A stretch of DNA of 21,933 bases, from positions 1 to 21,933 of IMG/VR virus record IMGVR_UViG_3300012928_000050. The stretch is one strand, 5' to 3'. A program made the position numbers and the translations under genes. Below the pieces are notes generated by a model, which ran no database searches, was not told where the DNA came from, and was given only the letters and a program-made list of their open reading frames with translations. Shown here in pieces: positions 1 to 8,198 of the stretch (the stretch's first letter is position 1; each line of letters starts with the position of its first letter). Origin of the DNA: a virus.

Positions 1-30
1 ATAACTTTTTATGAAAATGGTGAACAATAA
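1..30 (+). CDS. 3' end of an upstream gene (partial)
   Basis: The first 27 bases read as an open frame ending ITFYENGEQ, with a TAA stop at 28-30 that shares one base with the gp16 start (TAATG). Tight stop/start overlaps are the rule in this window, so this is probably the C-terminus of a real gene. In T4 the gene before 16 is gene 15 (tail sheath stabiliser/tail completion), which makes gp15 the natural guess, but nine residues cannot prove it. Confidence 0.45.
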   Translation: MTFYENGEQ

Positions 31-503
31 TGAGCAAATTGGAAGATAGTGTAAACGATATTTTAGGTATCGAAAAGAAAAGTACAGATGTAACCGTTTC
101 AGACTTTGAACAACCAGCACCTGTACCTAGAAAAATAGATGAGAATAAACCTCATGTTGACCAAGATTATGAAAATAGTAGAGAAAACTATTATAATCTT
201 ATTGACAAAGGCAATCAAGCAATTGAGGGTATATTAGATATTGCAAAAGAAGGCCAACACCCTAGAGCATATGAAGTTGCAGGTCAATTGATTGGGCAAG
301 TTGCACAAACGGTAGATAAACTACAAGACTTACAAAAGAAATTAAAAGATTTAAAAGAAGTGCCAAACAAGGCAAATACAAATATTAAAAATGCTTTATT
401 TGTAGGTTCGACAAACGAATTACAAAAAATGTTGAGGAAAAATGATGAAACTATTGAAGTCACAAAGACAAGTACCGAAGAAAAAGATATTTCAAATAAG
501 TGA
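30..503 (+). CDS. 16: Small terminase subunit, T4 gp16-like
   Basis: Probable small terminase, which recognises phage DNA and stimulates the ATPase of the large subunit during packaging. The 157 residues are close to T4 gp16 (about 164). The N-terminus is acidic and probably flexible, with a Pro-rich stretch near residues 28-37. The middle (about 65-120) is alpha-helical with heptad-like hydrophobic spacing, such as VAQTVDKLQDLQKKLKDLKE, as expected for the coiled-coil oligomerisation region. The C-terminus is charged. The start is fixed by the one-base overlap with the upstream stop. The identification rests on helical character, length and position two genes before gp17; small terminases diverge fast, so it relies on synteny more than on motifs. 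The last 62 bases are overlapped by the next gene. Confidence 0.8.
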   Translation: MSKLEDSVNDILGIEKKSTDVTVSDFEQPAPVPRKIDENKPHVDQDYENSRENYYNLIDKGNQAIEGILDIAKEGQHPRAYEVAGQLIGQVAQTVDKLQDLQKKLKDLKEVPNKANTNIKNALFVGSTNELQKMLRKNDETIEVTKTSTEEKDISNK

Positions 504-732
504 TTTAACTTATATTAAGTCAATGACACCTCTGCCTGAATTACTAAAAGGCGAAGAGTTAATCAATCCAATAGAAGTAATGAGACATGCTGTATCAAAG
601 ACACCAAGATATGGTGCCGGTGGTAAACCTTATACTGAAAAAGAATTTAGTGTATGGCGTGGTAGTCAGAGAGTACAGGCTGCTATAAAATTAGGTTATA
701 CACATATAGAGGGCATAGTAATTAATGATTGA
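442..732 (+). CDS. Small ParB-like (ParB/Srx-fold) protein inside the terminase operon
   Basis: A 96-residue basic protein. The C-terminal stretch WRGSQRVQAAIKLGYTHIEG (residues 72-91), followed by IVIND, resembles the core of ParB N-terminal domains: a G-x-x-R loop, an AA-x-x-LGY helix and a short beta strand. The upstream ELINPIEVMRHAV region fits the usual preceding segment. It starts inside gene 16, overlapping it by 62 bases in another frame. A GAGG at 434-437 serves ATG 442 or, with better spacing, ATG 445; ATG 523 would avoid the overlap but has no clear ribosome site. It overlaps the next gene by 8 bases. ParB-fold proteins bind DNA or nucleotides, and some phage members are nucleases or modification-linked, but only the fold is suggested here. 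A role in packaging would be inference from position. Confidence 0.6.
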   Translation: MMKLLKSQRQVPKKKIFQISDLTYIKSMTPLPELLKGEELINPIEVMRHAVSKTPRYGAGGKPYTEKEFSVWRGSQRVQAAIKLGYTHIEGIVIND

Positions 733-1282
733 TTTAGTGAATAACAAATATCAAGTTTTTGATAATTTAGTATCAAAAGAAACGCAAGATTATATTGAAA
801 GTATGTTGTTAGATGGTGATAATTTTCCTTGGTTTTTTAATGATACAAGTTGCAAGTTAGATGAAGAAGACCAAGGAATGCCTTTCTATGATTATATGCA
901 ATTTTCACATTCATTTGTATTAGACTATAAAGAAAACTCTTCTGCTAAAGGTTTAGTATTAGATAAATTATTAAAAGAAGTTGATATTAAAAATCAAGTA
1001 ATAAGAGCAAAGGCAAACTTAAAACCTATTGCTCCTATGGGAGATTTAGACAAACATAATAAACCTCACTATGACCAAAAAGAAGACCATTTTGTAGGTT
1101 TATATTATGTAAATGAAAGTGATGGAGATACTTGGTTGTTTAATGAAGATAAAGCAATGTTAGCAAGAATAAAACCAAGAAAGGGTAGATTACTTGTATT
1201 TGATGGCAATTTATTACATGCGGCTTCACATCCGTATTATGCAAAGAAAAGACTAGTAATAAACATAGATTTTAAAAAATGA
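725..1282 (+). CDS. 2OG-Fe(II) oxygenase, prolyl-4-hydroxylase-like, HxD type
   Basis: A 185-residue 2-oxoglutarate and Fe(II)-dependent dioxygenase. The double-stranded beta-helix signature is complete: H115-Y-D117 in KPHYDQ, a GLYYVNESDGDTWLFNE strand pair, the distal H165 in LLHAASH, and R176 about eleven residues later for the 2OG carboxylate. The family uses O2 and 2OG to hydroxylate proteins, nucleic acids or small molecules, and the substrate is not readable here. The N-terminal layout (a short strand, DNLVSKET, then a FPWFF segment) matches the oxygenases at 15881 and 21120, so these three look like paralogues. It sits between the ParB-like gene and gp17, with an 8-base overlap before it and an ATGA overlap after it. 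T4 has no oxygenase in this position. Confidence 0.88.
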   Translation: MIDLVNNKYQVFDNLVSKETQDYIESMLLDGDNFPWFFNDTSCKLDEEDQGMPFYDYMQFSHSFVLDYKENSSAKGLVLDKLLKEVDIKNQVIRAKANLKPIAPMGDLDKHNKPHYDQKEDHFVGLYYVNESDGDTWLFNEDKAMLARIKPRKGRLLVFDGNLLHAASHPYYAKKRLVINIDFKK

Positions 1283-2910
1283 GTACAGACGCATATCTAG
1301 GTAATCCTAATTTAAAAAAGGTAAACACACCTATTGAATTTACGAAAGAACAAATCGTAGAATATCAAAAGTGTGCTGAAGACCCTATTTACTTTATGGA
1401 AAAATATATCCGTATTGTATCTCTTGATGAAGGTCTAGTGCCTTTTAATATGTATGATTTTCAAAAACATATTGTAAGAACAATACACGACAATAGATTT
1501 ACAATATGCAAATTACCAAGACAATCAGGTAAATCTACAACAACCGTATCTTATCTATTACATTTTGCATTGTTTAATCCTAATTCAAACATTGCCATAC
1601 TTGCAAACAAATCATCTACTGCTAGAGATATATTAGGTCGTGTTCAACTTGCATATGAAAATTTACCAAAATGGTTACAACAAGGTGTTATAAACTGGAA
1701 CAAAGGTAATATTGAATTAGAAAACAAGTCAGTAATTGTGGCGGCTGCAACATCTTCAAGTGCTATTCGAGGTGGTTCTTATAATATTATCTTTCTTGAT
1801 GAGTTTGCTTTCGTTCCTGCTAATATTGCCGAAATGTTTTTTAGCGCAGTTTATCCTACCATATCTGCTGGTACAAAAACTAAAATGATTATTGTATCTA
1901 CACCTTATGGTATGAACCAGTTTTACAAATTATGGACAGACGCAGAGAATAAAAGAAATGATTATGTACCTATTGAAGTACATTGGTCAGAGGTACCAGG
2001 TAGAGATGAGGCATGGAAAGAAGCAACAATTAGAAACACCTCACCTGAGCAGTTTCAACAAGAGTTTGAGTGTGAATTTTTAGGTAGTGTTAACACATTA
2101 ATTAATCCTGCTAAGATTAAAAATATGGTCTTTCAACAACCATTACAATCTAATGGTGGTTTAGATGTATATGAGAAACCTGAAAAAGATAAAACATATG
2201 TAGCAATGGTTGATGTTGCTAGAGGTGTCACAAAAGATTATTCAGCATTTGTAGTAGTAGATATAACACAAATACCATATAGAGTTGTAGCAAAATTTAG
2301 AGATAATGAAATTAAACCTTTATTGTTTCCTCATAAAATAGAACAAGTGTGTAAGGCATATAATCATGCACATGTAATTGTAGAAACAAATGATTTAGGT
2401 CAACAGGTTGCAGAGGCATTGCAATTTGAATTAGAGTATGATAATCTATTAATGACTACACAAAGAGGTAGAGCAGGTCAAATATTAGGCGCTGGTTTTT
2501 CAGGAAGAGGGACTGGTTTTGGTGTTAAGATGACCAAACAAATTAAAAAAATAGGTTGTTCAAATATTAAATCATTAATTGAAGGAGATAAAATTGTAAT
2601 AAATGATTTTGATATGGTGGGTGAGATGTCTACCTTTGTAAAACGAGGTCAATCATGGCAGGCCGAAGATGGTAATACAGACGATTTAATGATGTGTTTA
2701 GTCATATTTGGCTGGTTATCTAATCAACCTTTTTTCAAAGAGATGACAGATACAAATGCTCGTCAAATACTATACGAGGAACAACAAAAACAAATAGAGC
2801 AGGATATGGCGCCGTTTGGTTTCGTAGATGATGGTATACCAGACCATGAGAAACCTGAAGTTGATGAATATGGTACACTTTGGCATCCGGTGACATACAA
2901 GAGGGATTAG
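1279..2910 (+). CDS. 17: Large terminase subunit (packaging ATPase/nuclease), T4 gp17-like
   Basis: Motor and nuclease that pumps DNA into the prohead through the portal. The N-terminal ATPase has the phage-type Walker A PRQSGKST (80-87, K85), Walker B IIFLDE (170-175) and coupling motif STPYG (207-211). The C-terminal RNase H-like nuclease supplies the metal ligands D312 (VDVARG), E369 (IVETND) and D468 or D469 (GNTDDL), matching the D/E/D triad of T4 gp17. At 543 residues it is shorter than T4 gp17 (610), mostly at the N-terminus. The start shares ATGA with the oxygenase stop, so translation is probably coupled. No catalytic residue is missing and the gene looks intact. Confidence 0.97.
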   Translation: MSTDAYLGNPNLKKVNTPIEFTKEQIVEYQKCAEDPIYFMEKYIRIVSLDEGLVPFNMYDFQKHIVRTIHDNRFTICKLPRQSGKSTTTVSYLLHFALFNPNSNIAILANKSSTARDILGRVQLAYENLPKWLQQGVINWNKGNIELENKSVIVAAATSSSAIRGGSYNIIFLDEFAFVPANIAEMFFSAVYPTISAGTKTKMIIVSTPYGMNQFYKLWTDAENKRNDYVPIEVHWSEVPGRDEAWKEATIRNTSPEQFQQEFECEFLGSVNTLINPAKIKNMVFQQPLQSNGGLDVYEKPEKDKTYVAMVDVARGVTKDYSAFVVVDITQIPYRVVAKFRDNEIKPLLFPHKIEQVCKAYNHAHVIVETNDLGQQVAEALQFELEYDNLLMTTQRGRAGQILGAGFSGRGTGFGVKMTKQIKKIGCSNIKSLIEGDKIVINDFDMVGEMSTFVKRGQSWQAEDGNTDDLMMCLVIFGWLSNQPFFKEMTDTNARQILYEEQQKQIEQDMAPFGFVDDGIPDHEKPEVDEYGTLWHPVTYKRD

Positions 2911-2926: not shown

Positions 2927-2934
2927 TATAAATA
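2927..2934 (+). promoter_or_regulatory. T4-type late promoter TATAAATA before the tail sheath gene
   Basis: An exact TATAAATA, the -10 element read by gp55-directed RNA polymerase in T4-like phages, lies 17 bases after the gp17 stop. It would give gp18 a leader of roughly 105-110 bases. The same octamer stands before gp21 and gp22. Confidence 0.75.
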
Positions 2935-3048: not shown

Positions 3049-4962
3049 ATGGCATTTCAAGTATCACCAGGTGTTCTCGTACAGGAAAAAGACTTAACAA
3101 GAATTATTCCTGCCGTTTCAACATCTACTGGAGCTTTTGCTGGTAAATTCGCAAAAGGACCGTTAGATGAGGTAGTGACTATTTCTAGTGAACAAGAGTT
3201 AGTATCCGTATTTGGCAAACCAGACGCTGATAATTTCGAAGATTTTTTTAGCGCCGCTGCTTTTCTACAATACTCTAACGCTTTAAGAGTTGTCCGAGTA
3301 CAGAATTCATCTGTATCAAACGCTACCGAAAGTGGTTCAGCGTTTGTAATCAAAAATCTAACTGATTACCAAGATAACTATGCTGATGGTTCTGGTTCTG
3401 TTGGACAATGGGCTGCTAGAACAGCAGGCGCCCATGGTAACTCAATAGCGGTACATGTTTGTCCGTCTGCTCAAGCATACGAAGAATTAAACATAACAAC
3501 CGTTAATGACGCTTCAACAGCAACTGGAGATACGGTAGTAACCGTCACATCTGGCACAGGCATTGGTATTGGTGACATTGTTAACTTTGGCGATAATCAC
3601 GAATACAGAGTTATAAATGTTGCAACAAATGATTTAACAATAGTAAGAAAAAACGAACCTGATTATTTCGCAGCTAGCGATTCCTCTGGTCTTGTTGAAG
3701 CACTAACAAATGGTGCTCAAGTAAGAAGAAGATGGAAGTATTATGACCTAGTTAAGAAAGCACCAGGAACATCTACATTCGTATCACAAAAAGGTGGTTC
3801 AAATGATGAACTACACATTGTCGTAGTTGACGAAGATGGCGACATCACAGGAACAAAAGGTGATGTATTAGAAGTTTATGACGCATTGTCAAAAGCTTCA
3901 GACGCAAAACTTCCTCAAGGCGAAACAAACTATTACCCAACGGTAATTCAGAATAAGTCTAATCACATATTCTGGATGGACCACAACACAGGCGGTTCAA
4001 ACTGGGGTAATGCAGGTACTTCAACTTTCACAGCAGTTGCAGACCCTATTTCAGTATCACTTCAAAGTGGTTCAAATGGGAGTGCTTCAACAACTGGTCA
4101 GTTAAGAGTTGCATATGAGAAGTTTGCTGATACAGACACGGTTGATGTTGGACTTATCATAGGTGGTAAGTGTGACGCAACTCACATTGACAACCTTATT
4201 ACAATCGCAGAAAACAGAAAAGACGCAATAGCATTTGTGTCTCCTGAAAGAAGTGATGTACTTAATGTTGACGGAAGCACAGCAACATCTAATGTTGTTT
4301 CTTTCTTCAATGGTATCCGTTCATCTTCATATGTTGTATTCGATAGTGGATACAAATATATGTACGACAGATATAACGATATGTACAGATATATACCTTT
4401 AAACGGTGACATGGCAGGTCTAGCTGCACGAACTGATTTAATCGCAGACGCTTGGTACTCACCAGCAGGATTAAACAGAGGTGTTGTAAGAGGCGCTGTT
4501 AAACTTGCATACAATCCTACAAAAACACAAAGAGATGACCTTTACAGAGCTAGAGTAAATCCAGTAGCGACCTTCCCAGGTCAAGGTACGGTTTTATTTG
4601 GCGATAAAACAGGTCTATCAACTCCAAGTGCTTTTGATAGAATAAATGTAAGAAGATTGTTTATCGTATTAGAAAAGGCGATTGCTACGGCTGCTAAATT
4701 CCAATTGTTTGAATTCAATGATGAATTTACAAGAGCGAACTTTAGAAACATAATCGAACCTTTTTTAAGAGAAGTACAAGGTAGAAGAGGTGTCACAGAC
4801 TTTTTAGTAGTGTGTGATGAAACTAACAACACAGGTCAAGTAATAGACGCTAACGAATTCGTTGCTGAAATCTTTATTAAACCAGCGAGAGCAGTTAACT
4901 TTATTACTTTACAATTTATCGCAACCAGAACTGGTGTCAGTTTTGATGAAGTTGCAGGTTAA
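3049..4962 (+). CDS. 18: Contractile tail sheath protein, T4 gp18-like
   Basis: Main contractile sheath protein that polymerises around the tail tube and contracts on infection. It has 637 residues (T4 gp18: 659). The N-terminus (SPGVLVQEKD, then AGKFAKGPLDE and VFGKPD) is typical of myovirus sheath proteins. The C-terminal domain (FDRINVRRLF, LEKAI, REVQGRRGV, EIFIKPARAVNFI) is the conserved core that forms the handshake with neighbouring subunits. The middle (about 130-400) is Ser/Thr/Gly-rich and variable, as expected for the surface-exposed domains. It is preceded by AAGGAG and a late promoter. GAC-Ala codons are conspicuous here, with eight Asp-Ala pairs all written GAC-GCN. Confidence 0.97.
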   Translation: MAFQVSPGVLVQEKDLTRIIPAVSTSTGAFAGKFAKGPLDEVVTISSEQELVSVFGKPDADNFEDFFSAAAFLQYSNALRVVRVQNSSVSNATESGSAFVIKNLTDYQDNYADGSGSVGQWAARTAGAHGNSIAVHVCPSAQAYEELNITTVNDASTATGDTVVTVTSGTGIGIGDIVNFGDNHEYRVINVATNDLTIVRKNEPDYFAASDSSGLVEALTNGAQVRRRWKYYDLVKKAPGTSTFVSQKGGSNDELHIVVVDEDGDITGTKGDVLEVYDALSKASDAKLPQGETNYYPTVIQNKSNHIFWMDHNTGGSNWGNAGTSTFTAVADPISVSLQSGSNGSASTTGQLRVAYEKFADTDTVDVGLIIGGKCDATHIDNLITIAENRKDAIAFVSPERSDVLNVDGSTATSNVVSFFNGIRSSSYVVFDSGYKYMYDRYNDMYRYIPLNGDMAGLAARTDLIADAWYSPAGLNRGVVRGAVKLAYNPTKTQRDDLYRARVNPVATFPGQGTVLFGDKTGLSTPSAFDRINVRRLFIVLEKAIATAAKFQLFEFNDEFTRANFRNIIEPFLREVQGRRGVTDFLVVCDETNNTGQVIDANEFVAEIFIKPARAVNFITLQFIATRTGVSFDEVAG

Positions 4963-5539: not shown

Positions 5540-7048
5540 ATGGCTGATTTATTTGGGTTTTCTATTACACGGAAAAAGCAACAGGCAGACCCGAAACAAA
5601 GCTTTACACAACCACAGGCGGATGATGGTACACAAACTATCGCCGCCGGTGGATATTTTGGTCAGTACCTTGACATGGAAGGTACTGCCAAGAATGAGCA
5701 AGACTTAATCCGAAGATACAGAGAAATTTCACTCCATCCGGAGTGTGACATGGCTATCGAAGATATTATCAACGAAGCAGTTGTATCTAACGAGATGAAA
5801 GAGGCAGTAAAGCTTAATTTGGATAACTTGCCTTACGGTAAAGATGTAAGAAGAAAAATCGAAAACGAGTTTAGTGAAGTATTAAGGTTGTTAAACTTTA
5901 GTACAAAAGGTCACGATATCTTTAGAAGATGGTATGTTGACGGAAGAGTTTATTATCATAAAGTAATTGATAGAGAAGAAACTTCCAGAGGTATTACTGA
6001 ATTAAGATATATTGACCCTAGAAAAATTAAGAAGATTAGAGAAGTAAGAAAGAAACGACCAGATGTTTCAACTCCTCATGGTCTTACGGTTGTAGATGAA
6101 TTCGAAGAATATTTTATGTACAACGAAAAAGGTGTCACGAATACGACATCTGGTGGTATTAAGATTGCCGTTGACGCAATTGCATTTGTACCATCTGGAT
6201 TAATTGACCAAAATAAGAACCAAGTATTATCTTATTTACATAAGGCAATTAAACCAACAAATCAATTAAGAATGATTGAGGACTCGGCAGTTATTTACAG
6301 AATTGCTAGAGCACCTGAAAGAAGAATTTTTAAGATTGATGTAGGTAATTTACCTAAAGTAAAAGCTGAACAATATCTACGAGATGTTATGGCAAGATAT
6401 AGAAATAAACTTGTCTATGACGCAAACACAGGTGAAATCAGAGACGACAGAAACTATATGTCTATGTTGGAAGATTTCTGGTTACCAAGTAGAGAAGGTG
6501 GTAGAGGCACATCTATTGATACTTTACCAGGCGGACAAAATTTAGGTGAAATACAAGATATAGAATACTTTAGAGCAAAACTTTATAGAAGTTTAAATGT
6601 TCCTGTAAGTAGATTAGAAGGCAGTCAAGGTTTTAATCTTGGCCGTTCTACTGAAATTACAAGAGATGAACTTAAATTTACAAAGTTTGTTCAAAGATTA
6701 AGAAAGAAATTTACAGAGTTATTTAACGACATACTGAAAACTCAATTAGTATTGAAAAAAGTTATTGCTGAAGAAGATTGGCATAATGTTAAAGAAAATT
6801 TAGCGTATGACTTTTTACAAGATGGTCACTTTGCAGAATTAAAAGATAGTGAGTTATTATTGGAAAGATTGAGATTGGCAAATGAAATGCGTGATTATGT
6901 TGGTAAATATTTTTCTGTGGAATATGTACGAAAAAATGTACTAAAACAAAACGAGAGAGAAATAGAAGACATTGACAATCAAATTAAGAAAGAGATTGAT
7001 GATGGTATTATTTCTGCTCCAACAGACGACTTAAATAATAAAATCTAG
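5540..7048 (+). CDS. 20: Portal vertex protein, T4 gp20-like
   Basis: Dodecameric portal at the unique capsid vertex. It nucleates prohead assembly, is the channel for packaging with gp17 and later joins the neck. It has 502 residues (T4 gp20: 524). The conserved N-terminal block (DLIRRYREISLHPECD, residues about 54-69, then MAIEDIINEAV) marks the gp20 family. The central blocks ELRYIDPRKIKKIREV and RNKLVYDANTGEIRDDR, and the tunnel-region helix before LNVPVSRLE, are also typical. The C-terminus is charged and helical (NEREIEDIDNQIKKEIDDG). It has a good AAGGAG site and lies 9 bases before the next gene. Confidence 0.96.
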   Translation: MADLFGFSITRKKQQADPKQSFTQPQADDGTQTIAAGGYFGQYLDMEGTAKNEQDLIRRYREISLHPECDMAIEDIINEAVVSNEMKEAVKLNLDNLPYGKDVRRKIENEFSEVLRLLNFSTKGHDIFRRWYVDGRVYYHKVIDREETSRGITELRYIDPRKIKKIREVRKKRPDVSTPHGLTVVDEFEEYFMYNEKGVTNTTSGGIKIAVDAIAFVPSGLIDQNKNQVLSYLHKAIKPTNQLRMIEDSAVIYRIARAPERRIFKIDVGNLPKVKAEQYLRDVMARYRNKLVYDANTGEIRDDRNYMSMLEDFWLPSREGGRGTSIDTLPGGQNLGEIQDIEYFRAKLYRSLNVPVSRLEGSQGFNLGRSTEITRDELKFTKFVQRLRKKFTELFNDILKTQLVLKKVIAEEDWHNVKENLAYDFLQDGHFAELKDSELLLERLRLANEMRDYVGKYFSVEYVRKNVLKQNEREIEDIDNQIKKEIDDGIISAPTDDLNNKI

Positions 7049-7565: not shown

Positions 7566-7802
7566 ATGGCATGGGTAGATATTCCAGGTTCAAATAGTGT
7601 GTGGCAATATGAAAATACTGCTACGGCGTCTAATACATATGCAAGTGCTCCAGGCACATACTCTGGTGGTGTAAGAACTTTCACACAACCAGGTACAGGT
7701 TTAGAAACTAAAGTATATGTAAGAACAAGAAAAAAAGGCGAAACAACTGAGCGTGGTGAACTATCTAAAACATTTTTTGACGCTACACATATAGGATTTT
7801 AA
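7566..7802 (+). CDS. Small probable virion structural protein
   Basis: A 78-residue protein beginning MAWVDIPGSNSVWQYENTA, rich in Ser, Thr, Gly and aromatic residues, with alternating polar/hydrophobic stretches that suggest beta strands. There are no Cys residues, membrane segments or catalytic motifs. Its ATG follows the previous stop immediately and is preceded by AGGTAGGT. It sits in the head-gene cluster and composition fits a capsid-associated or decoration protein, but I do not recognise a characterised family. Confidence 0.6.
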   Translation: MAWVDIPGSNSVWQYENTATASNTYASAPGTYSGGVRTFTQPGTGLETKVYVRTRKKGETTERGELSKTFFDATHIGF

Positions 7803-8198
7803 ATGGCAGACCAGATAACAACACAAACAATTGCTGACACCTCTGGTGTTAAGTATGTTACCAAAATGACAAATTTTTCAGACGGCACAGGCGAGAGTTT
7901 AGTCACAAAGGTAGACGCTTCAGCTACGACATTTATGAGTGAAGACGCAGAGAGAAAAATCAGTAAGATTTGGTACTCTATTAATACTACTAATCAAAAA
8001 TCAGCAGTAGAATTGTTGTGGGCTGGTACAGGTTCTAATCAAACTGCTGTTATTTTAAGTGGTAACGGATATTGGGACTTTAGAGAAGCAGGAGATGAGT
8101 TGAAAAACAACGCTACCGGCGCTACTGGAGATGTTCTATTATCGACAAGAAACTTTGCTAATGGCGACAATTACACAATTATTGTAGAGTTTAGATAA
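7803..8198 (+). CDS. Probable virion structural protein, beta-rich
   Basis: A 131-residue protein with the look of a compact beta-sandwich: alternating strands such as KYVTKMTNF, ERKISKIWYSI, KSAVELLWAG, AVILSGNGYWDF and DNYTIIVEFR separated by Gly/Asn/Thr-rich turns. No cleavage, catalytic or transmembrane motif is visible. It follows the 7566 gene with no intergenic base and is the last gene before the gp21 late promoter. A head-surface or decoration role is inferred from this context. I do not recognise a named T4 homologue. Confidence 0.6.
   Translation: MADQITTQTIADTSGVKYVTKMTNFSDGTGESLVTKVDASATTFMSEDAERKISKIWYSINTTNQKSAVELLWAGTGSNQTAVILSGNGYWDFREAGDELKNNATGATGDVLLSTRNFANGDNYTIIVEFR

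Follow-up and report, generated by a model that had tools for sequence, protein, structure and literature searches.

A stand-alone ParB/sulfiredoxin-fold gene between the terminase genes of Mosig-type pelagiphages

Gene layout and translation start

A short open reading frame lies between the genes for the small and the large terminase subunits in a T4-like phage. Is it a genuine gene, what does it encode, and does DNA packaging depend on it? These questions are raised by a stretch of 21,933 bases (hereafter the window), which corresponds to the complete IMG/VR record IMGVR_UViG_3300012928_000050 and comes from a T4-like phage that is close to the pelagimyophage Mosig (87.8% identity in TerL). 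Four overlapping genes, all on the + strand, were found at its beginning: terS, encoding a T4 gp16-like terminase small subunit (30..503; phrog_445, E 3.7e-46; Pfam DNA_Packaging, E 1.2e-7); the stand-alone ParB/sulfiredoxin (Srx)-fold gene, encoding 95 aa (445..732) and hereafter called the ParB-fold gene; a 2OG-Fe(II) oxygenase gene (725..1282; Pfam 2OG-FeII_Oxy_3, E 3.3e-6), inserted between the ParB-fold gene, which it overlaps by 8 nt, and terL, which it overlaps by 4 nt; and terL itself, encoding a T4 gp17-like terminase large subunit (1279..2910; phrog_2, E 2.1e-74; Terminase_6N and 6C). The first sequence match in the window to ATAAATA, a T4-late-promoter-like core, is located after terL (2928..2934, + strand), so that the four genes look co-transcribed. 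This motif, which we take to be a late promoter from what is known of T4, occurs six times in the window, always on the + strand (2928, 8207, 8882, 11616, 14342 and 14767), i.e., less often than the 14.8 times expected by chance on both strands. Four of these sites are located between ORFs, upstream of the next ORF, as expected of T4-like late promoters.

A preliminary description of this DNA had reported an ORF at 442-732 (+ strand, 96 aa) preceded by a GAGG at 434..437. Both are indeed present, the GAGG being a possible ribosome site on the + strand, 4 nt before the ATG at 442 and 7 nt before a second ATG at 445, with which the first forms a tandem pair. The N-terminal MK found in 126 of 132 distinct relatives of the ParB-fold protein corresponds to ATG 445, and we therefore place the start at 445 rather than at 442. 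The overlap between the 3' end of terS and the 5' end of the ParB-fold gene (445..503, + strand, different frame), which had been given as 62 bases and does measure 62 when counted from ATG 442, is consequently better counted as 59 nt. Among the 198 loci with a complete ParB-fold ORF, the overlap was exactly 59 nt in 126 and ranged from 32 to 62 nt in 188, always in the same relative frame (2 mod 3); the frame, the start and the overlap, which the preliminary description had proposed to compare among relatives, are thus conserved. The ribosome site is not: of the 63 distinct stretches upstream of the gene in relatives, 9 contain a Shine-Dalgarno-like 4-mer, compared with 367 of 1980 sampled ATGs from the same loci. 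For this reason, we regard coupled translation of terS and the ParB-fold gene as no more than probable.

Distribution and selection

A single-sequence scan of viral contigs yielded 77 candidate stretches, 61 of which encode a relative, far more than chance would give, and in a profile scan of viral contigs at least 483 of 599 candidates were confirmed as relatives. The scan of genome contigs gave 32 candidates and no relative. Placement was determined for 204 of the 205 gathered loci, which include the window, all contain a match and were not de-duplicated by contig; the remaining locus (L060) was left out, as its ParB-fold gene reads as broken. The gene overlapped terS by at least 20 nt in 194 of the placed loci and was more than 50 nt away from it in 8, and in the last 2 no terS was present in the piece. 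Moreover, recruitment by terS alone gave at least 591 confirmed relatives, from which the best 80 were used, and the ParB-fold gene was carried by 76 of these 80 loci, a sample that may lean slightly towards carriers because one terS search pattern lies partly inside the overlap.

The segment 445..732 of the window is a genuine gene, and it is under strong purifying selection: outside the terS overlap, a median dN/dS of 0.15 was obtained from 592 pairs of 95-codon copies that share 80-97% identity. A spurious ORF, open merely through the real genes that overlap or adjoin it, would fit the constraint that terS imposes on the N-terminal 59 nt as well as the lack of conservation of the ribosome site. 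The low median was, however, obtained from the approximately 230 nt outside terS, and relatives located away from terS in the genome, of the type found in phage HTVC008M, keep an MKLLSAK-like start and a GYTHI end. On these two grounds the spurious ORF was rejected, with a probability that we regard as negligible.

Predicted fold

The encoded protein is predicted to be a complete, stand-alone ParB/sulfiredoxin (ParB-CTPase) domain. A ParB/Srx-fold core had been suspected in its C-terminus; the fold was recovered, whereas its extent was found to be larger, as the domain fills the protein according to the VIA alignments (residues 8-95 of the model). The AlphaFold2 model, calculated from 69 sequences with less than 90% mutual identity, reached a pLDDT of 95.2 and a pTM of 0.83.

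The best 50 of 121 Foldseek matches in the PDB comprised ParB, Noc, Srx, SbnI, SerK, KorB and PadC, together with other entries that are presumably of the same fold. The top ranks were occupied by Noc, ParB, sulfiredoxin, SbnI, KorB and SerK, with a best E-value of just 1.7e-3 and none at or below 0.001. In the VIA comparison, rows 1-32 were all ParB/Srx-fold entries (1vk1 and 2hwj being ones that we take to have this fold). The best matches were the free serine kinase SerK (Z 8.3; 74 aligned residues, 2.6 Å) and Arabidopsis Srx (Z 8.0; 69 aligned residues, 2.2 Å), tied with Noc and ParB (Z 7.8), given that Z values within 1 of each other count as tied and that a best Z of 7-8 is typical when no clear match exists. 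In BFVD, a 95-aa record with 68% identity and a TM score of 0.94 was found, followed by many ParB-like proteins.

At the profile level, and independently of the structural model, hhalign aligned the family with seven ParB_N domains at a probability of 92.8 and a score of 41.1, versus a maximum score of 21.6 in 100 column shuffles and 17.7 for the reversed control; the probabilities obtained with single ParB sequences (1.0 and 0.5%) were too weak to use. ParB-like PHROGs were weakly matched by 31 of the 37 members examined (best 3.8e-4, phrog_4715), and TIGR00180 by 9 of 37 (best 0.011). A sequence bridge was also found, leading from the family profile to AGE60372 of HTVC008M (1.2e-4) and from AGE60372 to a phage DNA methyltransferase, at its ParB-like start (3e-5). 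Profile sequence searches of the PDB returned nothing at E ≤ 10, neither PF02195 nor phrog_12047 matched on the window, and Pfam ParB_N (PF02195) gave no match at E ≤ 1 in any of the 37 members. Because of this last result, the protein is assigned to the same fold only and is not filed as Pfam ParB_N.

Conserved motifs and comparison with known proteins

Among the 132 distinct proteins, 82-110 aa in length, two motifs were found in every sequence: GxxR (GSQR in 104, GNQR in 16, GSSR in 7 and GSRR in 5) and G[YC]T[HY]IE. In the window, these correspond to GSQR (661..672, + strand), the P motif or phosphate-binding Box II, and to GYTHIE (694..711, + strand), located after the P-motif helix. The register of GxxR matches that of ParB Box II in hhalign. 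The base-contacting helix of the C motif (Box I), by contrast with its counterparts in known binders described below, comprises about four residues in the model (31-34), and an NPIEV-like stretch is kept.

In ParB, Box II reads GERR, with a Glu, and in sulfiredoxin the catalytic Cys lies in a GGCHR loop; the position of this Glu or Cys is occupied by Ser or Asn in the family of the window protein. A Cys in the GxxR motif was found in 0 of 132 distinct proteins, and identity with sulfiredoxin was rejected on this basis. SerK has a second domain, and its chains, 239-241 aa long versus 82-110 aa here, are far longer than those of the family; some of the SerK entries among the VIA matches carry a mutated catalytic Glu30. 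ParB, Noc and KorB have the same N-terminal domain as the window protein. This domain takes up the whole of the 82-110 aa, so that the HTH and the C-terminal dimerisation domain of ParB could not be accommodated, and the protein was therefore rejected as a canonical ParB. For the same reason, the DNA-binding factor put forward in the preliminary description is unsupported, at least as a DNA binder of the ParB type.

Phage proteins of about 100 aa that consist of the ParB-CTPase fold alone have been reported (PMC12704722, PNAS 2025; consulted in part), and the single-domain fold in phages is thus already published. These proteins resemble the family described here in their length, in consisting of the fold alone and in their GxxR P motif. 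That survey relied on PF02195, which detects 0 of 37 members of our family, and the latter differs in its reduced C-motif helix and in a gene kept between terS and terL. According to the same source, 11 of 28 purified ParB-CTPase-fold proteins bound an NTP, those binders that were tested needed the Arg of GxxR to bind an NTP, the C-motif helix of known binders comprises about 12 residues plus a loop, and NTP specificity is not predictable from sequence (PMC12704722).

As GxxR is invariant, NTP binding through this motif is plausible for the window protein; the ligand may differ from that of known binders, since only four residues of the C-motif helix are left in the model. We would expect NTP binding and no ParB-style sliding on DNA. 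With its eroded base-recognition helix, this minimal ParB-CTPase fold would be useful for the question of what sets NTP specificity in such proteins. Neither the family nor its location between the terminase genes, its conservation or its shortened helix was found in the literature, judged mostly by titles and the starts of abstracts; at that level, no ParB-like gene beside the terminase was found for pelagiphages or T4-like phages, and the part of PMC7029224 consulted contains no mention of 'ParB'.

Related proteins in HTVC008M

HTVC008M possesses two single-domain ParB/Srx proteins, AGE60372 and AGE60375, encoded two genes apart (6227-6553 and 7596-7949 of locus L221, i.e., KC465899.1 26226-26552 and 27595-27948). 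At the positions of GxxR and GYTHIE in the window family, they exhibit GHQR or GGRR together with GYTHI, and hhalign gives 95% for the AGE60372 family. Unlike the window gene, they are located in the baseplate region and not beside the terminase, and the AGE60372 family has more residues at the C-motif helix. The annotated start of AGE60372 appears to be 21 codons too late, as the sequence begins with MKLLSAK once extended upstream. A relative of AGE60375 was present at a separate place in 42 of the 44 loci (L224-L267) recruited with AGE60372, directly adjoining it in many of them. Both genes adjoin a 2OG oxygenase and a methyltransferase. Moreover, a third relative, AGE60490 (3518-4609 of L364, i.e., KC465899.1 125017-126108), encoded near Radical-SAM, methyltransferase and carbamoyltransferase genes, combines a weak glycosyltransferase-2-like N-terminus (E 0.01, below the cut-off) with a ParB/Srx-like C-terminus.

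AGE60372 matches the ParB-like parts of phage DNA methyltransferases, and its L225 copy matches a type II methyltransferase model of PADLOC (1.9e-5), which would be in line with a helper in anti-defence or DNA modification comparable to DndB or to ParB-methyltransferase proteins. For the window protein itself, however, PADLOC gave no match at E ≤ 1, and the location of its gene among the packaging genes suggests expression at a stage that would be late for anti-defence; such a role is improbable.

The same relatives are relevant to a second explanation, in which the window protein would be a small enzyme or partner domain of phage modification chemistry, serving a kinase- or NTP-dependent step with 2OG oxygenases, methyltransferases or glycosyltransferases, and its address in the terminase operon would be stable but incidental. 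The oxygenase and methyltransferase next to AGE60372 and AGE60375, the weak glycosyltransferase-like part of AGE60490 and the enzymatic nature of the closest folds by Z (SerK and Srx, within the tie of 1) are all consistent with it. What the neighbourhood of the window gene adds is described below.

The interval between the ParB-fold gene and terL

The space that separates the ParB-fold gene from terL is an insertion slot, often occupied by different 2OG-Fe(II) oxygenases. Among the 192 loci holding terL and a complete ParB-fold ORF, terL was within 60 nt of the ParB-fold gene in 149, which leaves no gene between the two, and in the rows listed without an insertion the end of the ParB-fold gene mostly overlaps the extrapolated start of terL by about 5-11 nt. 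A relative of the window oxygenase was detected by tblastn in 23 of the 205 loci, the window included. The inserted ORFs listed numbered 25 between the ParB-fold gene and terL (repeats collapsed) and 8 between terS and the ParB-fold gene (repeats not collapsed), of which 18 and 2, respectively, were scanned with Pfam. Fifteen of these 20 matched 2OG-FeII_Oxy_3, 12 of them above the curated cut-off; the other five were an aminotransferase, two carbamoyltransferase parts, one DUF6445 and one ORF with no match.

The frequency of 2OG oxygenases in this adjoining slot (15/20) would again agree with a part in modification chemistry. However, 149 of the 192 loci have terL within 60 nt of the ParB-fold gene, and the latter stays next to terS whether or not an oxygenase is present. 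In addition, genes of the 2OG type are spread through these phages (among the 63 features annotated in the first 50 kb of Mosig, 9 are named 2OG/Fe2OG oxygenase or phytanoyl-CoA dioxygenase), so that adjacency to an oxygenase weighs little. We hold this explanation to be possible and no more than tentative.

In L043, the slot also contains an aminotransferase, which may correspond to the ALA synthase described in such phages (PMC11480375, consulted in part). In L169, two similar ORFs (3391-4038 and 4320-4952) are located one on each side of the ParB-fold gene; both look GIY-YIG homing endonuclease-like by eye, and the scanned ORF (4320-4949) gave no Pfam match.

Absence in relatives and possible function

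Two cultured relatives lack the gene at this place: HTVC008M carries a phytanoyl-CoA dioxygenase and a tryptophan halogenase there, and Melnitz-3 carries an F5/8 type C domain gene. The family profile gave no match at E ≤ 1 in the genome of Melnitz-3, whose TerL is 66% identical. Concerning the 4 misses among the 80 terS-recruited loci, L353 ends before the place, and L349 (near 4480), L351 (near 4480) and L354 (near 3974) contain stubs, in which the start and 28-29 codons are kept and the core is absent. These stubs lie mostly inside terS and stop about at the start of terL, where the L349 contig ends. The ParB-fold gene is thus widespread in one lineage and dispensable for packaging, given that it is missing here in HTVC008M and Melnitz-3 and reduced to stubs in three close relatives.

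These absences bear on whether the protein is a nucleotide-gated regulator of the terminase, acting on the timing of the TerS hand-over, on initiation or on end cutting. The gene overlaps terS and, without an insertion, mostly the start of terL, it is kept in 76 of 80 terS-recruited loci, and its fold is a known NTP switch (PMC12704722, consulted in part), all of which would suit such a regulator. Its absence from Melnitz-3 and, at this place, from HTVC008M, the missing core in L349, L351 and L354, and the lack of an HTH, and hence of ParB-like DNA contact, nevertheless make this role unlikely. We also think it improbable that the protein is a ParB-fold nucleotide switch in the terminase operon of Mosig-type pelagiphages that forms a co-translated gate on T4-type packaging, in which GxxR would sense an NTP, the shortened helix would allow a new ligand and the protein would control the TerS-TerL hand-over. 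The role in pac recognition or genome-end processing raised in the preliminary description is a guess; position alone speaks in its favour, and against it stand the absence of the gene from this place in HTVC008M and Melnitz and its reduction to a stub in three close relatives.

We favour, with a probability of about 0.6, the interpretation that the window protein is a single-domain NTP-binding accessory that is co-produced with the terminase and not essential to it. It would bind an NTP through GxxR, would be synthesised when and where the terminase is, via overlapping and probably coupled translation, and would act as a small nucleotide-dependent accessory, i.e., a switch or an adaptor, on a late-stage partner, packaging as such having no need of it. 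The roles in modification chemistry, terminase regulation and anti-defence are readings of this partner and overlap with the favoured interpretation. A phage modification enzyme of the oxygenase, methyltransferase or glycosyltransferase type is a conceivable partner, and the terminase or the packaged DNA a slightly less likely one; otherwise, it would be something else. Natural stubs, together with a cultured phage, Mosig, allow a direct test for a nucleotide-binding accessory of T4-type packaging.

Annotation in Mosig and other phages

In the cultured Pelagibacter phage Mosig EXVC030M (MT647606.1), Mosig_00048 is 66.7% identical to the window protein over its full length and occupies the same terS-terL place, with no oxygenase inserted. 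It is annotated as a 69-aa 'hypothetical' protein (MT647606.1 35677-35886) whose start lies inside the conserved domain; the relative itself spans 95 to 96 residues. Relatives are frequent in viral contigs (at least 483 places), yet the gene is annotated as too short and without a name in Mosig and is missed by the standard ParB model.

The small ORF located before gp17 in the cyanophages P-SSM2, S-SZBM1 and DSL-LC02 was rejected as a homologue, as it shows no resemblance by eye; the family profile gave no match at E ≤ 1 in these three genomes. DSL-LC02 has a different, longer ParB-like protein, which matches PF02195.

Finally, the phrog_274 label 'DNA endonuclease V' was observed on proteins that match the Pfam 2OG-Fe(II) oxygenase, and it looks like a misannotation. 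AGE60368 and AGE60373 both match 2OG-Fe(II) oxygenase, the former weakly (E 0.022, below the cut-off).
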